Virus record (IMG/VR): IMGVR_UViG_3300046009_001247
Location: 1 to 30,011 of that record
Strand: one strand, 5' to 3'
DNA from: a virus
DNA length: 30,011 nt
Shown here one piece after another: positions 2,638 to 24,758 of this stretch; within the stretch, counting starts at the first letter, position 1, and each line of letters opens with the position of its first letter. The position numbers and the translations under genes were made by a program. Below the pieces are notes generated by a model, which searched no databases, was not told the origin of the DNA, and saw only the letters and a program-made list of their open reading frames with translations.

Positions 2638-2955
2638 ATGCTAGAGAAAGACATCGAAAAATATTTCATGCGCCGCGTCGCTCAGGTCGGCGGTCGAGCC
2701 TATAAGTTCGTATCGCCGTCGAACCGCGGCGTCAGCGACCGCGTGGTCTGTTTACCTGACGGCACGACGCACTTCATAGAACTGAAGCGCCCCGGCGGCA
2801 AACTCAGCGAATTACAGCGACGATTTGCAATCGAGATGATGACGCTCAGTCAGAACTACGATTGTCTCTGGTCTAAAGAAGAAGTTGACAAATGGATCTC
2901 CGACCATACCAGCACGACGCCGCCGATTTCCTTTTCAGTCGTGACCGGGCCATGA
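2638..2955 (+). CDS. VRR-NUC domain nuclease
   Basis: The 105-aa product is a stand-alone VRR-NUC (a PD-(D/E)XK superfamily) nuclease. The core spans residues 3-65: Glu5 in the first helix, GVSDRVV with Asp34, then HFIELKRPGGKLSELQ carrying Glu48, Lys50 and Gln60. Small phage VRR-NUC proteins are generally found beside SNF2-like helicases, as here, and are thought to cut branched or structured DNA in replication or recombination. The start is ATG with a modest AAGAG Shine-Dalgarno. Its last 64 nt overlap the helicase start in a different frame, which suggests coupled translation. Confidence 0.9.
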   Translation: MLEKDIEKYFMRRVAQVGGRAYKFVSPSNRGVSDRVVCLPDGTTHFIELKRPGGKLSELQRRFAIEMMTLSQNYDCLWSKEEVDKWISDHTSTTPPISFSVVTGP

Positions 2956-4178
2956 TCCTCGCGCCAGTCGGCGCGGGCAAGACAGCGATTACATTAACCG
3001 CAATGACCGAAATGATTATTCATGGTCATTGCGACCGCTGGCTTGTGTTAGCGCCGAAGCGCGTTTGCACCGATGTGTGGCCGGTCGAGGGGCGCAAATG
3101 GGCTCCTGAATTTAACATCGCCGTCGCAGTCGGCACGCCCGCGCAACGTAAGAAAGCGTTCAAATCCGACGCCGACATTGTTGTAACCAACTACGACAAC
3201 ATCCCCTCCATCAACCCGACCGGCTTCGGCGGCATTATCTTCGACGAGTTGACGCGGCTGAAAAACCCGTCCGGCAAGCGATTCAAGCATCTTCTTAAAA
3301 TCCTCGACCAGTTCAAGATCCGCTGGGGTTTGACGGGATCGTTCACGTCAAACGGTTTAGAAGACGTGTTCGGCCAGTGCAAAGTCGTCGACCAGACGCT
3401 GCTAGGACGCAGCAAGGGCGCGTTCCTACAGCAATACTTCTATTGCGTGAACCGCGACTTTGGCCAGTGGGAGCCGCTGCCGCAAGCGCTGCCAAAGGTC
3501 ATGGAGGCGATCAAGCCGGCGACTTATGTGCTAGAGCCTGGCGAGTATAAGGACAAGCTGCCGCCGCTCCACGTCGTGCAAATGCGCTGCGATCTCGACG
3601 ACCGCGAGCCGTATGAAAACATGAAGAGGGAATATGTGCATGAAGAGATCACGGCTCCAACAGCGGCTGCTGTCACAAACAAACTTCAGCAGCTTACGTC
3701 CGGCTTCGCTTATGATAGCCAAGGCGTTGCTAAGTGGTTTGGACGCCAAAAGTTTGAATCTCTCCGAGACATCATCGACGAAAACCAACGCGACAACACC
3801 ATCATCGTCTACAATTACAAAGAAGAACTAGCCGAGCTGCAACGCGAGTTCAACGTCGCAACGATTGATGAGCCTGACGCCATAGAGCGCTGGAACGCTG
3901 GCAAAATCGAATTGCTGGCAATCCATCCCAAGAGCGCTGGTCATGGGTTGAACCTTCAGTTCGGCGGTAACAAGATCGTCTTTATCTCGCTACCGTGGTC
4001 GCTGGAGCTGTTCGAACAAACGGTCGGCCGTCTGCATCGCAGCGGACAAACGCGCGATGTGTGGTGCTACATCATCATGTGTAATAAAACTATTGACGAA
4101 AGGATCTTGTCTAGTTTACAAGACAAGAAATCTTTAGCGGAAATCGCCCTTGCAGAACTTAACGTGGAAAACCCTTAA
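2892..4178 (+). CDS. SNF2-like superfamily 2 DNA helicase/translocase
   Basis: The 428-aa product has a Q-motif-like LRPYQHDA at residues 3-10, Walker A APVGAGKT (24-31), a motif II variant FDELTRLKN (Asp118/Glu119, with DELT in place of DEAH/DEAD), motif III-like WGLTGSFTSN, and in the C-terminal RecA fold a motif V/VI pair SAGHGLNLQF...LEQT-type QTVGRLHRSGQ. The HRSGQ ending is typical of the SNF2 and phage DEAD-helicase group. It is compact, with no extra accessory domain. It overlaps VRR-NUC by 64 nt and is followed by a 69-aa gene overlapping its end by 29 nt. The likely role is replication initiation or recombination together with the nuclease. Confidence 0.92.
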   Translation: MDLRPYQHDAADFLFSRDRAMILAPVGAGKTAITLTAMTEMIIHGHCDRWLVLAPKRVCTDVWPVEGRKWAPEFNIAVAVGTPAQRKKAFKSDADIVVTNYDNIPSINPTGFGGIIFDELTRLKNPSGKRFKHLLKILDQFKIRWGLTGSFTSNGLEDVFGQCKVVDQTLLGRSKGAFLQQYFYCVNRDFGQWEPLPQALPKVMEAIKPATYVLEPGEYKDKLPPLHVVQMRCDLDDREPYENMKREYVHEEITAPTAAAVTNKLQQLTSGFAYDSQGVAKWFGRQKFESLRDIIDENQRDNTIIVYNYKEELAELQREFNVATIDEPDAIERWNAGKIELLAIHPKSAGHGLNLQFGGNKIVFISLPWSLELFEQTVGRLHRSGQTRDVWCYIIMCNKTIDERILSSLQDKKSLAEIALAELNVENP

Positions 4179-15879: not shown

Positions 15880-16589
15880 TAGTAATTTCCAGCGTATATA
15901 TTGTAGCGCTGACGAGTGCCAACGATGCTGTAAGGCAACGCCATGATGTCGTCAGGGTTATTAATGCGCTTCAGATTGCGCTTGCTATACATCGCGATCC
16001 GCTGCACTTGCGCGGACGGCTCGACGCCAAATTCCGGGGCCATTTCACAAGCCAAATTATAACGAAAAGCACGAAGATAGCCCGGCGGAAAAGTCAGCGA
16101 TGTCGACAAAAGCGCCGGCTGCGATAGCTCCTCGACCGAAATGAAATGCCACTCTAGCTCGCGAAGCGGCTTGGGGTAGACATACATATCAATGTCGGGA
16201 AACGTATTGTTGACGAATATGACCTGCGGATAGGTCGACGTGACAGTCTTGACGGCGATACCGTCATACTGCTGCTGATTAATGAATTTTATGCCGTAGG
16301 ACACATTGGTCTGCGGGTCACGAAAATAAGTCGCATCATCCAGCAGAACAGGTCGATTGCCGACGAAATTACCCGTAGGGCCGAGCGTCCGGTTAAGTTC
16401 GCCGGACGGCCACAGAAATGTTTGATCCTGCGTCGAAAAGACCGCCAGACGCTCCGTGTTCCACGAGTCGATCATCTGGTTCAGCGCCATCAGCGCGTCC
16501 TGCGCCGTCTCCGCTGAAGGCGTTTCGCCTTCTGCGAGGACGCCCAGAAGTCTCAGCGCCCCGTTGATCTGATCGTACGCTGTCGTCAT
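15879..16589 (-). CDS. P22 gp4-like head-to-tail adaptor
   Basis: The 236-aa product shows the P22 tail-accessory-factor pattern: N-terminal YDQINGALRLLGVLAEGETPSAE, ALMALNQMIDSWNTERL, a loop region, WPSGELNRTLGPTG, then IDMYVYPKP and a C-terminal RAFRYNLACEMAPEFGVEPS helix. These proteins form the ring under the portal and seal the filled capsid. In P22 gp4 also has a muramidase activity; no such catalytic pair is evident here. The ATG lies inside the preceding small gene, which overlaps it by 197 nt in another frame. A GGAAAGG element sits about 10 nt ahead of the ATG. Confidence 0.88.
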   Translation of the reverse strand: MTTAYDQINGALRLLGVLAEGETPSAETAQDALMALNQMIDSWNTERLAVFSTQDQTFLWPSGELNRTLGPTGNFVGNRPVLLDDATYFRDPQTNVSYGIKFINQQQYDGIAVKTVTSTYPQVIFVNNTFPDIDMYVYPKPLRELEWHFISVEELSQPALLSTSLTFPPGYLRAFRYNLACEMAPEFGVEPSAQVQRIAMYSKRNLKRINNPDDIMALPYSIVGTRQRYNIYAGNY

Positions 16590-16695
16590 TCGGATCGAAC
16601 CTTTCCCAGCCGTTCTCTTCGTCGGCTTCGGCTTCTAAATCTAGCGTGGCGATCTTAACGCCATGATGCTTATGACGCAAATATATTACCGCCAT
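16393..16695 (-). CDS. Small virion-operon protein overlapping the gp4 adaptor gene
   Basis: Read from the ATG at 16695, preceded by a GGAG Shine-Dalgarno at 5-nt spacing, the product is 100 aa. The first 36 or so residues (MAVIYLRHKHHGVKIATLDLEAEADEENGWERF) look like a small conserved phage protein in which a VxLKHxxHGxKVA opening leads to an NGWERFxP end. From about residue 36 the frame runs inside the gp4-like gene out of frame for 197 nt, and the remaining Arg/Gly-rich sequence (GRPRRRRNAFSGDGAGRADG) has the look of a shadow reading. The true gene may have lost its original stop. It overlaps the DUF115-type gene by 26 nt. Confidence 0.65.
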   Translation of the reverse strand: MAVIYLRHKHHGVKIATLDLEAEADEENGWERFDPNDDSVRSDQRGAETSGRPRRRRNAFSGDGAGRADGAEPDDRLVEHGASGGLFDAGSNISVAVRRT

Positions 16696-17515
16696 TTGGG
16701 CTCCATTCATATTTATCTTCGTAAAGGCCGTCTTTGCCGTTTACGTCTTCTAAATGCTCTTTTAACGCTTTTGATACGGCGGCGATAGACCAGTCATCAT
16801 GGGCGATTAACGCCCGCAAAAGGCCGCCGGACTGTTCTTTATAAACCTGCGGAAATTCGCGCAGAATGTTTGCCAGTTCTTGAGCCTGAACAAGAAACGG
16901 GGGAGTCGTTCGATAATCGACGCCGGCGGCGCGGACGATAAGCTGATGCTCACGGTTCTCATTTAAATAAGCATGATCCCTATCAATAAACGAGCTTTCA
17001 CAGCCAAAATATGTGACGTCTTTGTAGCCCAAAATACCGGAAAGAACCGGCATACTAGCGGCAGTTGTAGAACCGCCAAATAAGCCAGACTTAACAACAG
17101 GTTGCATGTGAAAGAGCCGAGGCGATGGATACCGCGCAACAATGCTAGGATGGCACCACGAAGAGAAAAGGCTGTCTTTGACCGTGCTGGGGTCAGGCCA
17201 ATGCTCTAAATTTGTTTCTGCGTCGACGCTGACTAACGTAGCCTTTATGCCGTGTTCCGCAAGCCAAGACGACGTTCGGTTTATGGCCCAGATGTCTCCC
17301 GGCCACGTTTTAAACGTCTCTACATGGTCGAGGATCGACGGACCGCCGCCAATGATGGCTAATGGCCGACCATGTAGTCCGCAAGGCTCGATATGCGGAC
17401 ACGCTACATTGGCTAGAATATTGGCGTGCAAGTCCGCGAAAGACTGCTCTTGAACGCCAATAAAGTCGATACGGAAAGGGGTTTCCCCCTTCCCGTTTGA
17501 TTCAGGCGCTATCAC
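16670..17515 (-). CDS. DUF115 / Maf-like protein, putative sugar transferase
   Basis: The 281-aa product has LAIIGGGPSILDHVETFK (GGGPS at 56-60), AINRTSSWLAEHGIKATLVSVDA, and later STTAASMPVLSGILGYKDVTYFGCESSF, which is the layout of the DUF115 group. That group includes the MptE pyrophosphokinase-like fold and the Maf motility-associated flagellin glycosyltransferases. The glycine-rich loop and the 'xxAAxxxLxxxGYKDVxxxGC' segment are the strongest signs. Its presence between coat-associated and adaptor genes suggests virion or surface sugar modification, but substrate and activity are inferred. The start is GTG at 17515 overlapping the upstream TGA as GTGA; an upstream GGAG-like sequence is not obvious. 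Confidence 0.78.
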   Translation of the reverse strand: MIAPESNGKGETPFRIDFIGVQEQSFADLHANILANVACPHIEPCGLHGRPLAIIGGGPSILDHVETFKTWPGDIWAINRTSSWLAEHGIKATLVSVDAETNLEHWPDPSTVKDSLFSSWCHPSIVARYPSPRLFHMQPVVKSGLFGGSTTAASMPVLSGILGYKDVTYFGCESSFIDRDHAYLNENREHQLIVRAAGVDYRTTPPFLVQAQELANILREFPQVYKEQSGGLLRALIAHDDWSIAAVSKALKEHLEDVNGKDGLYEDKYEWSPNGGNIFAS

Positions 17516-17760
17516 GCAGAGCCTTTCATCAGACCTAGAGCGACAAGTGTGGCGCGGATCTCTTCCAACTGAGCAACCGCCGCGCTAAAGGCGGTCGCCG
17601 TGGAATAGCCAACACCGCCAGTCGTCGCGGTCGTCAGAGTAAGAGCTGCCTGATCTGCGCTGGCGCGCTGCGCGATGCCGTTAGTTCCATAGAAGCCAAC
17701 GGGGTCCGTCGTGGATTCACCCAAAACGGACATCGCTACGCCGAGTGCTTTACCGGGCAT
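17512..17760 (-). CDS. Small head-associated protein, paralogue 1
   Basis: The 82-aa product shares its core with the next gene: (R)ASADQAALTLTTATT...GYSTATAFSAAVAQLEEIRATLVALGLMKGSA. The N-terminus includes a GFYG motif (residues 22-25). Proteins with this Gly-Phe-(Y/F)-Gly core and a helical AxQxxxIRxxLVxLGL(L/M)KGSA tail recur next to phage coat genes and are likely head decoration or minor virion proteins, although their role is not proven. The ATG has an AAAGGACT Shine-Dalgarno. It is 16 nt from paralogue 2 and overlaps the DUF115-type gene by 4 nt. Confidence 0.78.
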   Translation of the reverse strand: MPGKALGVAMSVLGESTTDPVGFYGTNGIAQRASADQAALTLTTATTGGVGYSTATAFSAAVAQLEEIRATLVALGLMKGSA

Positions 17761-17776
17761 ATCTAAGTCCTTTCAA

Positions 17777-18079
17777 TTAGGCAGAGCCTTTAAGCAGGCC
17801 AAGCGACACAAGCGACGCGCGGATGTTTTCAAGCTGCGCCACAGCGGCGCTGAACGCCGTGGAGGTTGTGAAGCCGTAACCGGCGGCCGTCGCCGTCGTC
17901 AGAGTCAGAGCCGCCTGCGAAGCACTCGCCGGCCGGGTCGTTGCCGTGACGCCGAAAAAGCCAATCGAACCGGACGCGCCGCCGAGAGACACCGGCTGCG
18001 TAGGGCGGCCGACATTAAGCGTTTCATTGACGTTGCCATCGCCGATCTGCTCACCATCACCAATTTTCGGAAGAGCCAT
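17777..18079 (-). CDS. Small head-associated protein, paralogue 2
   Basis: The 100-aa product is longer than its neighbour at the N-terminus (KIGDGEQIGDGNVNETLNVG) but has the same GFFGVTATTRPASASQAALTL core and ENIRASLVSLGLLKGSA tail. The two share nearly all of the last 50 residues, showing a tandem gene duplication with later change. It follows the hairpin terminator behind the coat gene and has a strong AAGGAGT Shine-Dalgarno, so it can be translated well even if transcription is reduced. A capsid decoration or fibre-anchor role is an inference. Confidence 0.78.
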   Translation of the reverse strand: MALPKIGDGEQIGDGNVNETLNVGRPTQPVSLGGASGSIGFFGVTATTRPASASQAALTLTTATAAGYGFTTSTAFSAAVAQLENIRASLVSLGLLKGSA

Positions 18080-18100
18080 GATTTATACTCCTTGTCTGAA

Positions 18101-18124
18101 GAAAAGGGCGGCCCGAAGGCCGCC
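18101..18124 (-). terminator. UUCG-tetraloop hairpin terminator behind the coat gene
   Basis: On the minus strand a perfect 7-bp stem GGCGGCC / GGCCGCC closes a TTCG loop with C-G closing pair, the very stable C(UUCG)G tetraloop, and is followed by CTTTTCTTC. It begins 7 nt after the coat gene stop. It should reduce transcription into the downstream tail genes and stabilise the 3' end of coat mRNA. Confidence 0.8.
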
Positions 18125-18130
18125 ACTTAA

Positions 18131-19327
18131 TTAGCCCCACATACGAACGGCCATCTGCGGACGAATGACGCTGTAGCCATACAGAACGTCAATACGGCAC
18201 GGCAGGCGGTCGTTATTGATGTCATACTGACGCACAACGCGCAGGCTGATACCATTGTGGACCTGACGCGAAGCCATGTCGACGCCCTGCGGGAGCAGGA
18301 GATCGGCCGTGGCGAACGCGATGGCGTCCTTGTGGTAGATCAGGTTCTGAGCATACTGCGTCGACGGCGAGCCAAGGAAGGTAACGGTCTTGCCGGAAAC
18401 CGGCAGAGCGTCGACCGTCGCAAGAGCCTGCGAAGCCGAATACATGGCCGCAACAGTGACCGAAGCCGTGGTGGACGCCGTAACGTCAGCCAGCGCAACG
18501 AACTGGAACAGCGAACCGGTCGACTCGCGGGTCTGCGGATTGACGGCATAGCAGTCCTGAACCGTGAACACGTCGCCGGCCTTAACAATCGTCGAGCCAA
18601 GCCCCGTGATGACAATGGCGGTCGCACCTTCAGTAGTAACCGAAGCATTAACCGTCAGCGTGCCCGTGCGCGAGCCAGTCGTAAACGACTTGATCGACTG
18701 CGACATATTCAGCTCTTCATAGCCGAGGATGCCTTCGCCGAAGATGCCGTTCTTAAACTGCTTCGAGATAGCCGAAACAGGGTTGAACAAGCCCTTCATG
18801 CCTTCGATCAGCGACGCGTTAGCAGCCGGATTGACCGTCGCATAGCGCGGCGACATGACGGCGGCGTTCTCGTTCAGCTTCTGCTGCGCCTGCAACAGAA
18901 CGAGCGAGGTGGCCGGGGTCGTGCCGGGCGTGCCGACCGAGTTGCCAATATATTTGAAGCTATTGGCGACGTCGGCGTCGATGCTGGAGGCGAGCTGCGA
19001 AATACGCGGCTTCAGCACGCGTTCCGCGAAGTCATCCAACTGCATCGTCAGTTCGGCGGTCGTGAAGTTCACGCCGATGTGCTTCTGCGACGAAACGGTC
19101 AGGGTCGTGTACTGCTCGTTATCGTCCTGCACCTGGAGGGCAGCACCGTCCGTGACCAGAGCGCGGTCGGGCAGACGGATGCGCAGGGTCGAGCCGATCT
19201 TAGCGCCTTCAACAGAGAAAGAGTCGTCGTACTGACGATTGACAGTGCGGGTCAGGACAAGATTATTCTCAAGGATCTCAAGAGCCTTGCGAGTAATCAT
19301 ATCAATAGTAAGAAGTGAGTTAGACAT
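18131..19327 (-). CDS. Major capsid protein, P22 coat (gp5) family
   Basis: The 398-aa product has the P22 coat pattern: a helical N-arm (LLTIDMITRKALEILENNLVLTRTVNRQYDDSF), then IGSTLRIRLPDRALVTDGAA, QKHIGVNFTTAELTMQLDDF, and the core segments FKYIGNSVGTPGTTP and GEGILGYEELNMSQSIK. P22 gp5 is about 430 aa, so this is slightly short, consistent with a reduced insertion domain. It assembles the icosahedral shell around the scaffold. The ATG has a GGAGATAAAG Shine-Dalgarno 3 nt after the scaffold stop; it is followed by the tetraloop terminator, a usual way to boost coat dosage. Confidence 0.93.
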   Translation of the reverse strand: MSNSLLTIDMITRKALEILENNLVLTRTVNRQYDDSFSVEGAKIGSTLRIRLPDRALVTDGAALQVQDDNEQYTTLTVSSQKHIGVNFTTAELTMQLDDFAERVLKPRISQLASSIDADVANSFKYIGNSVGTPGTTPATSLVLLQAQQKLNENAAVMSPRYATVNPAANASLIEGMKGLFNPVSAISKQFKNGIFGEGILGYEELNMSQSIKSFTTGSRTGTLTVNASVTTEGATAIVITGLGSTIVKAGDVFTVQDCYAVNPQTRESTGSLFQFVALADVTASTTASVTVAAMYSASQALATVDALPVSGKTVTFLGSPSTQYAQNLIYHKDAIAFATADLLLPQGVDMASRQVHNGISLRVVRQYDINNDRLPCRIDVLYGYSVIRPQMAVRMWG

Positions 19328-19330
19328 TCT

Positions 19331-20110
19331 TTATCTCCGATTCTGCGCTTCCCACTTCTTGATCTGTCTTTGCCGTTCCGCTTCTATCCAATCCGACGTT
19401 GACATTGACTTGAGTGACCGAGGGTCAGTCGTATCGTAACGCGGGCCTGAGTTTGACCGGGTAGCTGTGACAGGAGCAAGAGGCGCGGGCGCGGTTGAGG
19501 TTTTCTTAACCGGCGGATTATCGACCAATTTGGCCTCAATCTTTCCGATCTCTTTTGCCTGCAAAACTGGCGACAGACGGGAAATTCGGCTGGCTTCTTT
19601 TGGATTGGAACCAAGGAAGTAGATCACTTCTGGCCCAATGTCGGAAGCCTGGATAGCCTGAGCCATAATGTCCGTGACGGGGAGATTCGGGTTATACGCG
19701 ACTTGTTCAAAGTCCTCGTAACGATCCCGCGCCTCTTCTTCACGGTCTTTATAGCCGTCTAAGATCGCCTGCTGCTGCTGTGCGGCCTCGCGCTGGGCTA
19801 GAAGCTCTTGAGCGCGCTGATTGGCCAATGCTTCCGCATAAGCCTGAGCGTTTTCAAAATCATCCGGCGCAGGTGGAGGTGCCACAGGCTGTCGGGCCTG
19901 TTGCTCCGCAAGCCTTTGAGCTTGCTCTCTTTCCCATTTGCGCTGTTCTCTTGCAAGGCGCTTGCTTACGATTGCGTCCAGCTCTTCCTGAGAGAACGAT
20001 TTCGTAGGCTGCTGTTCCTCCGGCGTCGTATCAGCAGATTCCGGCGCTGCCGTAGCTTCCGGTTCCGGCGCGGGGCTGATCTCCGCTACAGCCTGTTTTT
20101 CTTCAGACAT
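19331..20110 (-). CDS. Scaffolding protein
   Basis: The 259-aa product is charged and low in hydrophobics: an acidic Pro/Glu/Ala N-terminus (EISPAPEPEATAAPESA), a Gln/Glu/Arg-rich middle with strong coiled coil (SKRLAREQRKWEREQAQRLA, QELLAQREAAQQQQ), and a basic C-terminal end (EAERQRQIKKWEAQ). Position immediately upstream of the coat gene and this composition are the usual signs of a scaffold. The basic C-terminal helix may bind the coat as in P22. A strong AGGAGACG Shine-Dalgarno precedes the ATG. Confidence 0.85.
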   Translation of the reverse strand: MSEEKQAVAEISPAPEPEATAAPESADTTPEEQQPTKSFSQEELDAIVSKRLAREQRKWEREQAQRLAEQQARQPVAPPPAPDDFENAQAYAEALANQRAQELLAQREAAQQQQAILDGYKDREEEARDRYEDFEQVAYNPNLPVTDIMAQAIQASDIGPEVIYFLGSNPKEASRISRLSPVLQAKEIGKIEAKLVDNPPVKKTSTAPAPLAPVTATRSNSGPRYDTTDPRSLKSMSTSDWIEAERQRQIKKWEAQNRR

Positions 20111-20152
20111 TACGTCTCCTACCTGGCTATCCGGCCAGTCGGTTTACAGACA

Positions 20153-20821
20153 TTACGCCTGTTCATGTTCAGCGTCAATGTTTTGCATAAACGCCTCAAA
20201 ATTGCCGATCCATCGGTGTTCACCGGAATGGCCGCAATTTATAGTCGGGTCTATGTAAACACGGCCGCCAAGATCTTGCCAAGTCTTACAAAATACAATG
20301 TCTTCAGACCAAAGCTCGCCATCAACAACGCGCACGTCAAAGACCATGCGATTAGGCTCTGGTTTATGGGGCTCCCGGTATTCAGGCGCGCTATCCCAGA
20401 TCTTCTTTATGGCGTCGGCCCGGATCCGCATAAAACCTGTAGCGGCGCCATCGACTTCTATCAGCCCGTTATCTTCCGGCGTTAAATTCTTGGTTTTGAC
20501 GCTGTAAGTATGGGCCGCGAAAGTTTTTTTGATAATTGGCGCTGCGACAATAGGCGCGTCATGATCTAAAAGTTTGAATAAGTCGCTTGGCGTCCAGTCA
20601 ACATCACAATCTATAAAAATTAGGTCGGTGACTCCGCTATCATGCGCCAGTTTGAATATGTCGTTGCGCGCTCTCTGAACAAGCGCGTCATAAGACATAT
20701 AAACCGGTATTATATTGATATTATTTGCTAACCCTATTTTGCATGTTTCAACTAACGCGGTTGCGTGCCAGACATTGATTTTGCCGTCATAGGACGGCGC
20801 AGCAAGCATCACAGTTCTCAT
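20153..20821 (-). CDS. GT-A fold glycosyltransferase 1
   Basis: The 222-aa product starts TVMLAAPSYDGKINVWHA, has an Arg-rich RARND motif at 50-54, then LIFIDCDVDW with Asp71-x-Asp73 as the putative metal-binding DxD, APIVAAPI, GAATGFMRIRADAI (about 146-159) and SEDIVFCKTWQDLGG near the C-terminus, where the Glu-Asp could be the catalytic pair. This order matches small GT2/Anp1-like enzymes found in phages. Acceptor is unknown: a virion protein, host surface or modified base are options. It sits 42 nt upstream of the scaffold, directly after a second glycosyltransferase (TGA-A-ATG junction, good AAGGGTG Shine-Dalgarno). Confidence 0.8.
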   Translation of the reverse strand: MRTVMLAAPSYDGKINVWHATALVETCKIGLANNINIIPVYMSYDALVQRARNDIFKLAHDSGVTDLIFIDCDVDWTPSDLFKLLDHDAPIVAAPIIKKTFAAHTYSVKTKNLTPEDNGLIEVDGAATGFMRIRADAIKKIWDSAPEYREPHKPEPNRMVFDVRVVDGELWSEDIVFCKTWQDLGGRVYIDPTINCGHSGEHRWIGNFEAFMQNIDAEHEQA

Positions 20822-20822
20822 T

Positions 20823-21542
20823 TCACACCCTTATAGCTTCATATTCGGTTTGTAGCGTGCCGCTATCCGTTTTATTTGCGTGCCCCCGAAATATATCGCA
20901 CCCCGTCATAGGGCAGTCTATCAGCCCGACTAAAGGAAACGATTTGAGACGAGGCAGGTAAAAGGTTTCTTTATCGTATGTCAAGACGATCTTTTTAACG
21001 CCCTTGTCCCTAAGATATGCCGACACAACAAGATCATCGTTCCATGATTTGTCCGCGTATAAATCGAAAAAATCATTGCTAAACATGCCGCGCGTATAAG
21101 ACGCCGATTTGTAATTGTCTAATATATCGACTTCAACATCGACCGGTGGGGTCTGTATTAACCGGCCTCGAATAGTCCCTGAAAACCCAAGCGCAGCGGT
21201 CGGGTATTTTTGCCGGCTTTTGAGGTGATAGGCGACAAGATCGCGATTATATATGATGTCATCATCGACAGTTATTATGATTGTATCAGGGTCAGTTATT
21301 CGCTGTAGCGTAGGTATGATTTTAGTTTTAGGCCCAAGATCGGGAACGCCCTCAAATATTAAGACGTTATCTATAGCCCGCAATTCATCGGGGATAACAT
21401 ATCTTTCGCCTGTAGAGGCGCAAACATCGGGAATGTTTAGATGTATTTCGCAGCCTACGCGCGACAATACTTTTAGCGTTCTAATTAAAGCGCCGGCCAA
21501 TCTGGCCGGCACTGTTGTCATGGACAATATGGTTTTGGTCAT
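20823..21542 (-). CDS. GT-A fold glycosyltransferase 2
   Basis: The 239-aa product begins MTKTILSMTTVPARLAG and carries LGPKTKIIPTLQRI followed by IIITVDDDIIY (DDD at about 92-94), the metal-binding DxD core of GT-A enzymes, then SFP-type LKSFPLVGLIDCPM and a C-terminal Cys/His-rich stretch (TGCDIFRGHAN). The motif order is typical of phage glycosyltransferases with an LGPxTKxxP element. The start is the ATG at 21542, which overlaps the upstream TGA (ATGA); an ATG at 21563 is in frame but lies within the preceding gene. Substrate is unknown; it is likely co-expressed with the next enzyme. Confidence 0.78.
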   Translation of the reverse strand: MTKTILSMTTVPARLAGALIRTLKVLSRVGCEIHLNIPDVCASTGERYVIPDELRAIDNVLIFEGVPDLGPKTKIIPTLQRITDPDTIIITVDDDIIYNRDLVAYHLKSRQKYPTAALGFSGTIRGRLIQTPPVDVEVDILDNYKSASYTRGMFSNDFFDLYADKSWNDDLVVSAYLRDKGVKKIVLTYDKETFYLPRLKSFPLVGLIDCPMTGCDIFRGHANKTDSGTLQTEYEAIRV

Positions 21543-21895
21543 TCGCTGACGCGATTCTCCCAAGGAAGCGGCGGTCTTACCGGCGTATTAGCGCCAATCT
21601 GGCTAACTTGCCAGTTAATATCGGCGACAATCCCCAACTCCATTTGAACAATGTCTTCATCGCTCAAAGTAGGTTTAACCCAGCTCAGAACTTGTTCTTC
21701 GGTCAAATCCGCCAACGGCGTGAACGGCGCGCCAGCAATGTAAGTAACTGACGTAGTGCCGCCGCGCGACGAACCGATATTGTCCTCGTTCTTGCCGCGA
21801 TAAGACCAGCCAATGTTAAAAACAACATCAAACTGGGAAGCATAGACCGGGTAGCACTCAATATCGTTTATTGTCCACGTATAAGAGATAGCCAT
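21539..21895 (-). CDS. Small phage protein, beta-rich (DUF7936-like)
   Basis: The 118-aa product opens with ISYTWTINDIECYPVYASQFDVVFNIGWSYRG, a pattern common in small phage proteins that follow fibre genes. It then has TPLADLTEEQVLSWVKPTLS, MELGIVADI and a Pro-rich tail (VRPPLPWENRVSE). The N-terminal beta region and helical tail are visible, but the role is unknown; an adaptor, chaperone or decoration part of the fibre are possible. The start is the ATG at 21895, one base after the fibre stop, with GAAGGGTG as Shine-Dalgarno; a GTG at 21904 overlaps the fibre. The DUF label is tentative. Confidence 0.72.
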   Translation of the reverse strand: MAISYTWTINDIECYPVYASQFDVVFNIGWSYRGKNEDNIGSSRGGTTSVTYIAGAPFTPLADLTEEQVLSWVKPTLSDEDIVQMELGIVADINWQVSQIGANTPVRPPLPWENRVSE

Positions 21896-21896
21896 T

Positions 21897-24758
21897 TTAT
21901 TCACCCTTCAGCGCGGAAATTTCCGCTTTGAGCTGATCGACTTGAGCCGACAATTCTTTCACGGCGTTAATAACCGGAATCATAAACGAGCCGATGCCGA
22001 CGCCAAGCGTTCCGTCTTTATCCTGGTCAATGACCGGAAAATCGTCGACGCCGGCTTCTTCAAGCGCCTGCTTAACATCCTGAGCGATGAAGCCGTAGTT
22101 AAGAGTTTCCGTGTTTTTGACGTTAACTTCGTTGTAGTGATTCGTCAGTTCCTGCGGGACTTCATTTGAAGGTTTCCAATAGAACGTAACCGGAGTTGTT
22201 TTCTTAATAAAATCCAAACCCAACGATTCAAACGGCGTAACATCGCGTTTTAGCCGGATGTCGGACGAGTAAGTCCATGATTTACCCGTAGCCGAAAAAT
22301 CAAGGTAGTAATAGCTGCCTGTCTTGCCAACCGAGATATAATTGTCGCCTTGGCCTGGCGTAGCTTGCCCAAGCACGATTTGGTTTACCCCGGCCGCTGC
22401 TGAAGCGCGTGCATCGACACCAATGATGACATTGTTAGCGCCGGTCGTCGTGGCCGTGCCCGTGTAGCCCGCGCCCGAACCAATAAAGACGTTACCGTCG
22501 CCAGTAGCGGAACGTCCTGCGCTGGACCCGACGCCTGTATTTGTCGTAGCTATAGACGCCGTAAATAGCGCTTTCCAGCCGACCGCCGTATTGTTAAGGC
22601 CGGTCGTATTGCTGTAAAGCGACTGAGTTCCTACGGACACATTGTTTATGCCGGTAGTGTTCCCACGCAATGCTTCTGTTCCAACAGCAGCATTTTCAAT
22701 GCCTGTCGTATTGCTATACAGAGCGCGATAACCGAGCGCAGAATTATACGATCCTGTTGATGCCGTAAGAGCCTGATAGCCAACCGCAGAACTATAAATG
22801 CCTATGTCGTTAGTGAATAATGATTTCCAGCCAACAGCCGTATTACCTACACCGGTTGTATTAGCGTAAAGCGCTTGAACGCCGACGCCGGTGCCGTACG
22901 CCCCCGTAGTGTTCGTGCGCAAGGCTTGATAGCCAACGGCGGCATTTTCAATGCCTGTCGTATTGCCGTATAGAGCTTGATAACCAAGCGCGGAATTATT
23001 AGACGCCGTGTTGGATAAAAGGGATTCAACGCCGACAGATATGTTAGCTGCGCCAATGCTGTTAGTAAACAATGCTTTCCAGCCAACAGCCGTGTTGTTA
23101 AGGCCGGTCGTATTGCTATAAAGGGCTTGAGTGCCTACAGCGGTGCTACGATAACCCCATACGTTCGAACGTAAAGTCTGATATCCGATAGCAACATTTT
23201 CATCGCCGGTCGTGTTCGAGAATAGGGCTTGATAGCCCATAGCGGTGCCATTTGCGCCGGTTGAATTAGTGTATAAAGCTCTATAGCCTACGGCGGTTTG
23301 ATTGGCGGCTCTATTAGCGTAAAGCGCCTCGCCGCCAACGGCCGTATTAAACGAACCCATTCTATTATCATTAAGCGCGTAATACCCGACGGCTGTATTA
23401 TTGGCCCCTGTAAGATTCTCTTTTAGTGTTTCAAACCCAAAAGCTGAGTTATTGTTGGCGTCGCTATTTACAAGTGCATTATAACCTACAGCGGTATTAT
23501 TCGCGCCGGTAATGTTATTATCCATAGAATCATAACCGACAGCCGTATTGCCGACGCCGGTAGTATTGTTAAACATTGACCTATAGCCAATGGCGACATT
23601 ATTATCGACTTCACTTTTTCGAAGCGCAGATATACCAATGCCGACATTATTAGTGCCGCCGGTGCCTTCACGAAGCGCCGAAACGCCGATGCCGATATTA
23701 TTATTGGAGTAAGTTCTTGCCTGTAACGCATTCAATCCAATAACAATATTCTGCGTTCCGGTAAGATTTTCATACAGCGCTTGATACCCGACAACTGTAT
23801 TACCCCAGCCCGTTGTATTTTTGAACATAGACTGACGGCCAATGGAAATATTATTACTGGCCGTTGTATTGGCAGGCATAGCGTCTGAGCCAATGGCAAC
23901 GTTATAAAGCCCTTCAGTATTAGATTTTAGTGCGTTAAATCCAACGGCCGTATTTTCATCGCCAAAAGTATTTGTTACTAAAGCATTGTAGCCAACGGAC
24001 GTATTTTCCATGCCGGTCGTATTGGCCGCAAGCGCGCTCCAGCCAACAGCCGTATTGCTTACGCCTGTCGAAGTGTTGCGCAGCGCCTGATAGCCTATAG
24101 CTGTCTGACCCGATACGTTGACAGTGCTATAGAGAGCTTCATAACCAACAGAAGTGTTAGTTGACCCGGAGGAATTTAAGAAAAGCGCTTTCCAGCCTAC
24201 CGCCGTATTGTTAAGGCCAGTCGTATTGCTATAAAGGGCTTGAGTGCCCACCGCTGTGCTGCGGTAACCCCAAATATTTGACCGCAATGCTTGATAGCCA
24301 ATAGCAACATTTTCGTCGCCGGTTGTATTTACGCGTAATGTTTCATAGCCTAAACCAGTAAGGCCAGTTCCGGTCGTATTAGCCGTTAAAACGCTGGAGC
24401 CAACCGCTGTATTGGCTGCGACGCCGCCGCCGCTTTTGCCAATAATCATGCCGTTAACCGACATATCCGCGCTGGCGGTTAACGTAGCGCCGTTATACTG
24501 TAAGCCGCTATTGCCAGTAAGGCGCGTGCCGTCAAAATAAGTTATATAGTTAGTAATAAAATTAGCCGCGTTAGTGCCGCCAGATGCGATATTCAATGGC
24601 GATGTAAGCGTAAGGCTGGACGCTGTTAACGCGCGCCCAGCCGTTACGTCAGATACAGCGACTTTTTTAGTCGTTCCGGACTGGACAATAGGTAAGACTT
24701 CCGAGCCGGTGAGCGGGGTTGTTGCAGCCGGAAGAGAGGAAATCTTTACGTCAGCCAT
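21897..24758 (-). CDS. Long repeat fibre with S74 intramolecular chaperone
   Basis: The 953-aa product has an N-terminal attachment-type region (KISSLPAATTPLTGSEVLPI), then about 35-40 repeats of 17 residues (NTAVGWKALFLNSSGST-like) from about residue 115 to 780, and a C-terminal S74 autochaperone from about 830. S74 evidence is SDIRLKRDV with Ser832 and Lys837 as the self-cleavage residues, plus LNYGFIAQDVKQALEE and a final coiled coil (VKELSAQVDQLKAEISALK). S74 domains fold the trimer and are then released. Repeats recall YadA-type head repeats and probably form a long trimeric beta shaft. The gene lies between portal and scaffold, an unusual place for a tail fibre, so a head fibre is possible. 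Confidence 0.9.
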   Translation of the reverse strand: MADVKISSLPAATTPLTGSEVLPIVQSGTTKKVAVSDVTAGRALTASSLTLTSPLNIASGGTNAANFITNYITYFDGTRLTGNSGLQYNGATLTASADMSVNGMIIGKSGGGVAANTAVGSSVLTANTTGTGLTGLGYETLRVNTTGDENVAIGYQALRSNIWGYRSTAVGTQALYSNTTGLNNTAVGWKALFLNSSGSTNTSVGYEALYSTVNVSGQTAIGYQALRNTSTGVSNTAVGWSALAANTTGMENTSVGYNALVTNTFGDENTAVGFNALKSNTEGLYNVAIGSDAMPANTTASNNISIGRQSMFKNTTGWGNTVVGYQALYENLTGTQNIVIGLNALQARTYSNNNIGIGVSALREGTGGTNNVGIGISALRKSEVDNNVAIGYRSMFNNTTGVGNTAVGYDSMDNNITGANNTAVGYNALVNSDANNNSAFGFETLKENLTGANNTAVGYYALNDNRMGSFNTAVGGEALYANRAANQTAVGYRALYTNSTGANGTAMGYQALFSNTTGDENVAIGYQTLRSNVWGYRSTAVGTQALYSNTTGLNNTAVGWKALFTNSIGAANISVGVESLLSNTASNNSALGYQALYGNTTGIENAAVGYQALRTNTTGAYGTGVGVQALYANTTGVGNTAVGWKSLFTNDIGIYSSAVGYQALTASTGSYNSALGYRALYSNTTGIENAAVGTEALRGNTTGINNVSVGTQSLYSNTTGLNNTAVGWKALFTASIATTNTGVGSSAGRSATGDGNVFIGSGAGYTGTATTTGANNVIIGVDARASAAAGVNQIVLGQATPGQGDNYISVGKTGSYYYLDFSATGKSWTYSSDIRLKRDVTPFESLGLDFIKKTTPVTFYWKPSNEVPQELTNHYNEVNVKNTETLNYGFIAQDVKQALEEAGVDDFPVIDQDKDGTLGVGIGSFMIPVINAVKELSAQVDQLKAEISALKGE
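22418..24416 (-). repeat. 51-nt (17-residue) repeat array in the long fibre gene
   Basis: About 35-40 degenerate tandem units of 51 nt encode N-(T/V)-(A/S)-(V/I)-G-x-x-(A/S)-L-x-x-N-T-T-G-x-x variants. Two distant blocks are near-identical at protein level: residues starting DENVAIGYQAL (about 24330 down) and again DENVAIGYQTL (about 23210 down), each running four units through YRSTAVGTQALYSNTTGLNN. Exact matches such as gtcgtattgctataaagg occur in both, indicating segmental duplication or recent recombination between units. Confidence 0.85.

Follow-up and report, generated by a model that had tools for sequence, protein, structure and literature searches.

Putative sugar-transfer enzymes paired with fibre and capsid-associated proteins in the structural operon of a P22-like virus

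The P22-like virus record IMGVR_UViG_3300046009_001247 of IMG/VR was analyzed over positions 1 to 30,011 (30 kb; the whole stretch is called the window below). It possesses a minus-strand structural operon that begins with terminase, portal, a DUF5856 protein, a fibre built of repeats and ending in an S74 (endosialidase-chaperone) domain, and a DUF7936 protein. It continues with two glycosyltransferase (GT) genes named here GT-C and GT-B, scaffold, coat, two small paralogous proteins (par1 and par2) and a DUF115 protein, and closes with a small conserved gene, tail factor and DNA-stabilisation protein. The portal (PF16510, E-value (E) 8e-169), the tail factor (matching phrog_12985) and the coat, scaffold and fibre matches listed below mark the operon as P22-like. 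The subject of this work is the three putative sugar-transfer enzymes, GT-C, GT-B and the DUF115 protein, and the virion proteins encoded next to them. The relevant features, followed by the flanking genes, are:

21897–24758, minus strand: S74 (endosialidase-chaperone) fibre (PF13884, E 4.6e-12); probable acceptor of GT-B/GT-C
21539–21904, minus strand: DUF7936 protein, which accompanies the S74 fibre throughout (PF25590, E 9.6e-18)
20823–21542, minus strand: GT-C, predicted GT-A-fold glycosyltransferase (KfiA/heparosan-synthase-like), motif TVDDDIIY
20153–20821, minus strand: GT-B, phrog_1574/A197-like GT-A glycosyltransferase, motif IDCDVD ... SED ... H
17777–18079, minus strand: par1, small Thr/Ser-rich coat-adjacent protein (12% T); probable acceptor of the DUF115 enzyme
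17512–17760, minus strand: par2, paralogue of par1; its stop codon overlaps the DUF115 start
16670–17515, minus strand: DUF115/MptE-like putative sugar transferase, motif IIGGGPS ... SVDAE ... FGCESSF (PF01973, below cut-off)
19331–20110, minus strand: scaffold protein, flanking gene (phrog_8865, E 7.5e-33)
18131–19327, minus strand: P22-like coat protein, flanking gene (PF11651, E 5.9e-38)
16393–16695, minus strand: small conserved gene (MAVIYLRH..), boundary gene outside the system; overlaps DUF115 and tail factor

An initial annotation had placed three sugar-transfer-type genes inside the capsid operon, two GT-A-type enzymes between fibre and scaffold and a DUF115/Maf-like protein behind the head-associated paralogues, all translationally coupled to virion genes. 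All three are intact minus-strand open reading frames at these positions, GT-C and GT-B lying between the S74 fibre/DUF7936 pair and the scaffold and the DUF115 gene lying behind par1/par2; the arrangement needs one correction, as the small conserved gene separates DUF115 from the tail factor. Coupling holds at the DUF7936/GT-C junction (an ATGA overlap, read directly), at GT-C/GT-B (1 nt apart) and at par2/DUF115 (a GTGA overlap, the start codon of DUF115 being GTG), and is looser at GT-B/scaffold (42 nt). GT-C starts with the ATG at 21542, and a longer form is possible from a TTG at 21563. A transmembrane stretch is absent from all three enzymes (maximum 19-aa hydropathy 1.15).

The fibre contains about 27 YadA-head-like 17-aa repeats (NTAVGxxALxxNTTGxN) and consists of 13% T and 11% N. 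In loci found via GT-B the gene order S74 repeat fibre–DUF7936–(GT-C)–GT-B recurs, both before the scaffold of P22-like loci (L107–L111, L030) and in other backgrounds (L011, L112–L114, L121, L133); in further lineages (L122–L132, L134, L136, L149) the fibre stands beside GT-B without a window-type DUF7936. To avoid circularity, DUF7936 was also scanned for without using the GT. Here GT-B was found downstream in 11/11 evaluable loci with the window-type DUF7936 and in 0/57 loci with another DUF7936/fibre type; after removal of redundancy, five window-type loci with GT-B stood against 0/40 others. The repeat fibre was seen upstream in 10 of the 11 window-type loci, and in the remaining one (L190) the fibre is truncated by the end of the contig. 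Linkage of a GT gene to a virion surface protein is thus found across genomes. The co-occurrence of the enzymes with S74 repeat fibres, suggested in the initial annotation, is borne out for GT-B in P22-like and other backgrounds; DUF115 pairs with par instead, and the three enzyme genes were not found together outside the species of the window.

Several loci display further enzymes around this cassette. In MW202483 (L002:7551-8162), whose coat is 92.7% identical to that of the window, the pre-scaffold slot that holds the GTs of the window is occupied by a 2-oxoglutarate-Fe(II) (2OG-Fe(II)) oxygenase, possibly another protein-modifying enzyme. At L131:4818-6660, between two S74 repeat fibres, a GT-B gene is immediately preceded by the gene of a cytidylyltransferase-cupin-like protein (recognized by eye), which suggests a phage-made activated donor. 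Two proteins of a GT2-tetratricopeptide repeat (TPR)-like type precede an S74 repeat fibre and GT-B in another locus (L122:292-2443); a similar gene (PF00535), then an endolysin, follows the cassette of L011.

The GT-B protein matches phrog_1574, an unnamed family (E 9e-19), and a profile built from 12 relatives matches A197 of Sulfolobus turreted icosahedral virus (STIV; crystal structure 2c0n, E 6.6e-7) as well as yeast Mnn9 (0.005). Both aspartates of its DxD motif (D71 and D73) are kept in 118/118 non-redundant family domains; loss of these catalytic residues, raised earlier as a check, was seen in none of the relatives. D174 is kept in 117/118 domains, and H198 is present in 115, the other three having a gap there. 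A GT-B-family domain and an S-adenosylmethionine (SAM) methyltransferase are fused in one phage and encoded by adjacent genes in another (L004:10057-11334, L015:6363-7549), which suggests a methylated sugar. Distant phrog_1574 relatives neighbour sliding clamp/clamp loader genes in phages of Ochrobactrum, Sinorhizobium and Stenotrophomonas that have T4-like replisomes (L014, L021, L022): the gene is flanked by the sliding clamp and gp46 in phiM12 (Sinorhizobium) and is close to the clamp in DLP6 (Stenotrophomonas) and OC (Ochrobactrum).

GT-C has no match in Pfam, PHROG or NCBIfam. A profile of five sequences matches Pasteurella heparosan synthase B (E 6e-6), and the predicted model (predicted local distance difference test score, pLDDT, 74) matches KfiA (5z8b; Foldseek E 1.8e-9, template modelling score 0.65/0.75) and many other GT-A enzymes. 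Its DDD motif (D93-D94-D95) is invariant in five relatives, down to 35% identity. Judging by the model, GT-C is a GT-A-fold enzyme. On a 58.6 kb contig, present in the collection as both L012 and L194, GT-C occurs with a phrog_1574 gene in a region of replication type, and the S74 fibre–DUF7936 pair is tens of kb distant.

A second slot, in the capsid part of the operon, shows a comparable pairing. Many GT-B-family genes lie between coat and tail factor, right behind the gene of a small, Thr-rich par-family protein, and in this position they are often fused to a methyltransferase (e.g., MW202691). The par family (EKIGFYGTTPVVQ..TTTATTT..LGLI; window 17512-18079) often follows P22-like coats in phages from metagenomes; it has no Pfam entry and no consistent PHROG match, and its assignment to a named head-fibre family was dropped for the same reason. 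A par scan was made without the GT, with query par proteins that came from GT-linked loci; it revealed a sugar enzyme just downstream in 37/43 non-redundant evaluable loci (35 of the GT-B family and two DUF115). In the coat-scan control none of the 68 coat loci had a sugar enzyme downstream of the coat. By eye, the par slot also holds proteins resembling GT2-type (L266, L268) and GT4-type (L273, L295) enzymes, with no Pfam match, adjoined by SAM methyltransferases (Pfam-supported in L288). Different enzymes thus replace one another in a single slot.

The DUF115 protein matches the MptE-like domain PF01973 over residues 49-176 (E 2.7e-6), with a score of 27.7 bits that lies below the curated cut-off of 34.6 bits. 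The proposed Maf likeness holds for this central domain only: the phage protein has 281 aa and a single PF01973-like region as opposed to the three-domain architecture of Maf, and strict membership was rejected. Only two other DUF115 genes were found (L291 and L302), and both follow par with overlapping start and stop codons; none was found in prokaryote genomes or named phages by the searches used. The motifs GGGP, FGCESSF and SGGLLRA and residue D98 (the aspartate of SVDAE) are kept in both relatives.

Among all par proteins collected, that of L302 is the best non-self match to both par proteins of the window, and that of L291 ranks second for par1 and fourth for par2. Identity between the window and these two loci reaches 49-63% for par and 37-41% for DUF115, and only 35% for the coat; phages with coats 92-95% identical to that of the window are without par and DUF115 and have other genes in the slot. 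Since par and DUF115 are close in phages with distant coats and both gone in those with near coats, they have moved together as a module.

In a quick FastTree phylogeny of GT-B-family enzymes, a single change divides the fibre-linked group (23) from the par-linked group (63). Such a division between clades, tracking the partner protein, is what substrate specificity would predict, which is not proof of it.

Taken together, these data are best explained if the phage glycosylates its own fibre and capsid-associated proteins, a reading that we regard as probable for the system as a whole. The virion-protein glycosylation proposed initially gains strong comparative support from the fibre and par linkage and the conserved DxD, and its likely acceptors are narrowed to fibre and par: on gene linkage, the fibre is the probable substrate of GT-B (with GT-C), and par that of the DUF115 enzyme. 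Judging by operon position, the three soluble cytoplasmic enzymes would be made late in infection, each from a gene directly downstream of that of its likely acceptor. GT-B, with GT-C in an accessory or extending role, would use a host nucleotide sugar as donor and glycosylate the S74 repeat fibre or DUF7936, and the DUF115 enzyme would place sugar on the Thr/Ser-rich par1/par2. In most related phages the latter job would fall to an enzyme of the GT-B family, which often has a methyltransferase fused to it or encoded next to it. The sugars would be attached before assembly, and the virion would bear them on its fibre and capsid-attached proteins, where they may mask adsorption sites, stabilise the virion or protect it from proteases.

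We further hypothesize that P22-like environmental phages carry exchangeable acceptor–enzyme glyco-cassettes in the coat–par and fibre slots. Surface protein and enzyme (GT-B, GT–methyltransferase fusion, other GTs or DUF115) would be swapped jointly, so that the sugar coat of capsid and fibre could be exchanged, and DUF115 would be a phage protein glycosyltransferase. For this wider proposal we consider the chances to be even.

Several observations weigh against glycosylation of virion proteins. Seven other S74-repeat fibres from cultured phages share the same repeat consensus, and an annotated GT neighbour is missing from all eight sampled loci of cultured or named phages whose repeat fibres are related. 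Hence the repeat is not an acceptor signature, the GTs are optional and this class of fibre does not require sugar; a candidate signature within the 17-aa repeat (including NTTG and NxS/T density) was discarded, the consensus being equal in fibres with and without a GT neighbour. Long-term vertical inheritance of each cassette would produce a similar division of the tree. The seed of the par scan was biased to GT-linked loci, and the loci are not phylogenetically independent; even so, chance is unlikely given how large the gap between par and control loci is and how unrelated enzymes interchange. No relative of DUF115 or GT-C was detectable by tblastn in the INPHARED phage collection. Distant GT-B relatives sit in replisome regions of T4-like phages, where members of the family may act on DNA or other acceptors. 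Of the residues listed for checking, the DxD aspartates of the GTs stand, whereas GGGPS of the DUF115 protein is intact in the window and reads GGGPL in both relatives, with loss of the serine. The AlphaFold model of the DUF115 protein, built on a three-sequence alignment, is poor (pLDDT 40) and has no match at E <= 0.001; a profile search of the PDB with DUF115 found nothing.

The last of these points bear on an alternative for one enzyme, that the DUF115 protein is no sugar transferase and resembles the pterin pyrophosphokinase MptE or binds nucleotides, serving the capsid in some other way. PF01973 takes its name from archaeal MptE, the match falls below the cut-off, and neither a strictly kept GGGPS nor a structural match speaks for a transferase. 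However, the slot of DUF115 (coat–par–enzyme–tail factor) holds glycosyltransferases and methyltransferases in relatives, and PF01973 is also the central domain of Maf, structurally similar to the sialyltransferase Cst-II (PMC11339370). We therefore hold this alternative to be unlikely, while giving it serious weight.

Linkage could also reflect insertion hotspots, the enzymes being passengers (morons) in hypervariable slots around fibre and coat. Both slots are indeed variable, relatives with 92-95% identical coats holding the 2OG-Fe(II) oxygenase of MW202483 or other fibres, and the GC content of the window is a mosaic: the fibre cassette has 45-49% GC against 53.7% for the window, the low value of the whole cassette being what a recent import would show. 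A hotspot, however, does not account for the lack of GT-B at equivalent positions in all 57 loci with other DUF7936 fibres, for enzyme–partner pairs that persist across different backgrounds, or for two GT clades that track two partners with one change while the catalytic aspartates stay invariant. We consider the passenger explanation improbable.

Modification of phage DNA bases, shielding the genome from host nucleases as with the T4 alpha- and beta-glucosyltransferases, appears very improbable for the window. It would suit the relatives at the clamp (and, in phiM12, gp46) of the three named T4-like phages, those in recombination or replication regions of several environmental phages, and the 23/118 GT-B domains with no virion gene detected nearby. 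All the enzymes of the window, however, belong to a structural operon and are tightly paired with fibre or par, at frequencies far above control, and no hydroxymethylase or thymidylate-synthase-like gene was found among the window proteins scanned, in a record that may be incomplete. Phage glycosyltransferases that modify O-antigen are well known (Gtr systems), and on that precedent the enzymes could alter the host surface (lipopolysaccharide/O-antigen seroconversion or superinfection exclusion) instead of the virion; this is equally hard to credit for enzymes without a membrane-spanning stretch, with no flippase or bactoprenol GT among the named genes of the window, and with genes that are coupled to structural genes and whose type tracks the neighbouring virion protein.

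Two further observations concern the surroundings of the system. The small gene at about 16393-16695 (MAVIYLRHKHHGVKIATLDLEAEADEENGWERFDP..) enters the start of the tail factor in a different frame and is a separate 66-67 aa gene in relatives. Unlike the structural operon, a VRR-NUC nuclease and SNF2 helicase pair (2638-4178) is encoded on the plus strand.

Phage virion glycosylation is already known, as are the enzyme families represented by A197, KfiA and PF01973. What is new is that enzymes and acceptors are paired systematically, that enzymes with no relation to each other alternate in one slot, and that a DUF115 gene is part of a phage capsid operon; a literature search, mostly outside subscription journals, returned no account of any of the three. 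Virion glycosylation has been described for few phages, and the assignment of enzyme to protein is mostly open. If our interpretation is correct, enzyme and acceptor can be read from gene linkage in a large number of phages in public metagenome data, and the same small capsid protein should be modified in the same way by enzymes unrelated to one another. Small podoviruses would then offer a direct test of which enzyme serves which virion protein. The interpretation would also explain the role of the large unnamed phage family phrog_1574.

Among characterized systems, STIV has a glycosylated coat, and its GT A197 is essential (PMC10551542). Like GT-B, A197 is a viral GT-A enzyme of small size that stands alone; it differs in belonging to an archaeal virus and in having the coat itself as suspected acceptor, whereas GT-B is tied to fibre or par. 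Glycans have been reported on the major capsid proteins of mycobacteriophages Che8 and Rita, with phage GTs suspected (PMC11256854). The likeness lies in glycans on a phage structural protein, which for the window are predicted; in Maravista, a relative, GT genes are located near the 3′ end of the genome (PMC11256854), whereas the window enzymes follow directly downstream of their presumed acceptors. Maf flagellin glycosyltransferases, which modify Ser/Thr of a surface protein and have a three-domain architecture with central PF01973 (PMC11339370), have this domain in common with the DUF115 protein, which is shorter, below the cut-off and without a flagellin. KfiA and Pasteurella heparosan synthase 2 share the GT-A fold with GT-C; they polymerise polysaccharide, whereas GT-C is 17% identical and is encoded in a virion operon. 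Bacterial adhesin–GT pairs (e.g., HMW1/HMW1C; SdgA/B with SD-repeat proteins) offer the parallel of a dedicated cytoplasmic GT acting on repeat-rich surface proteins (PMC3012730, PMC3794999), although they employ other GT families and their substrates are secreted bacterial adhesins rather than virions.

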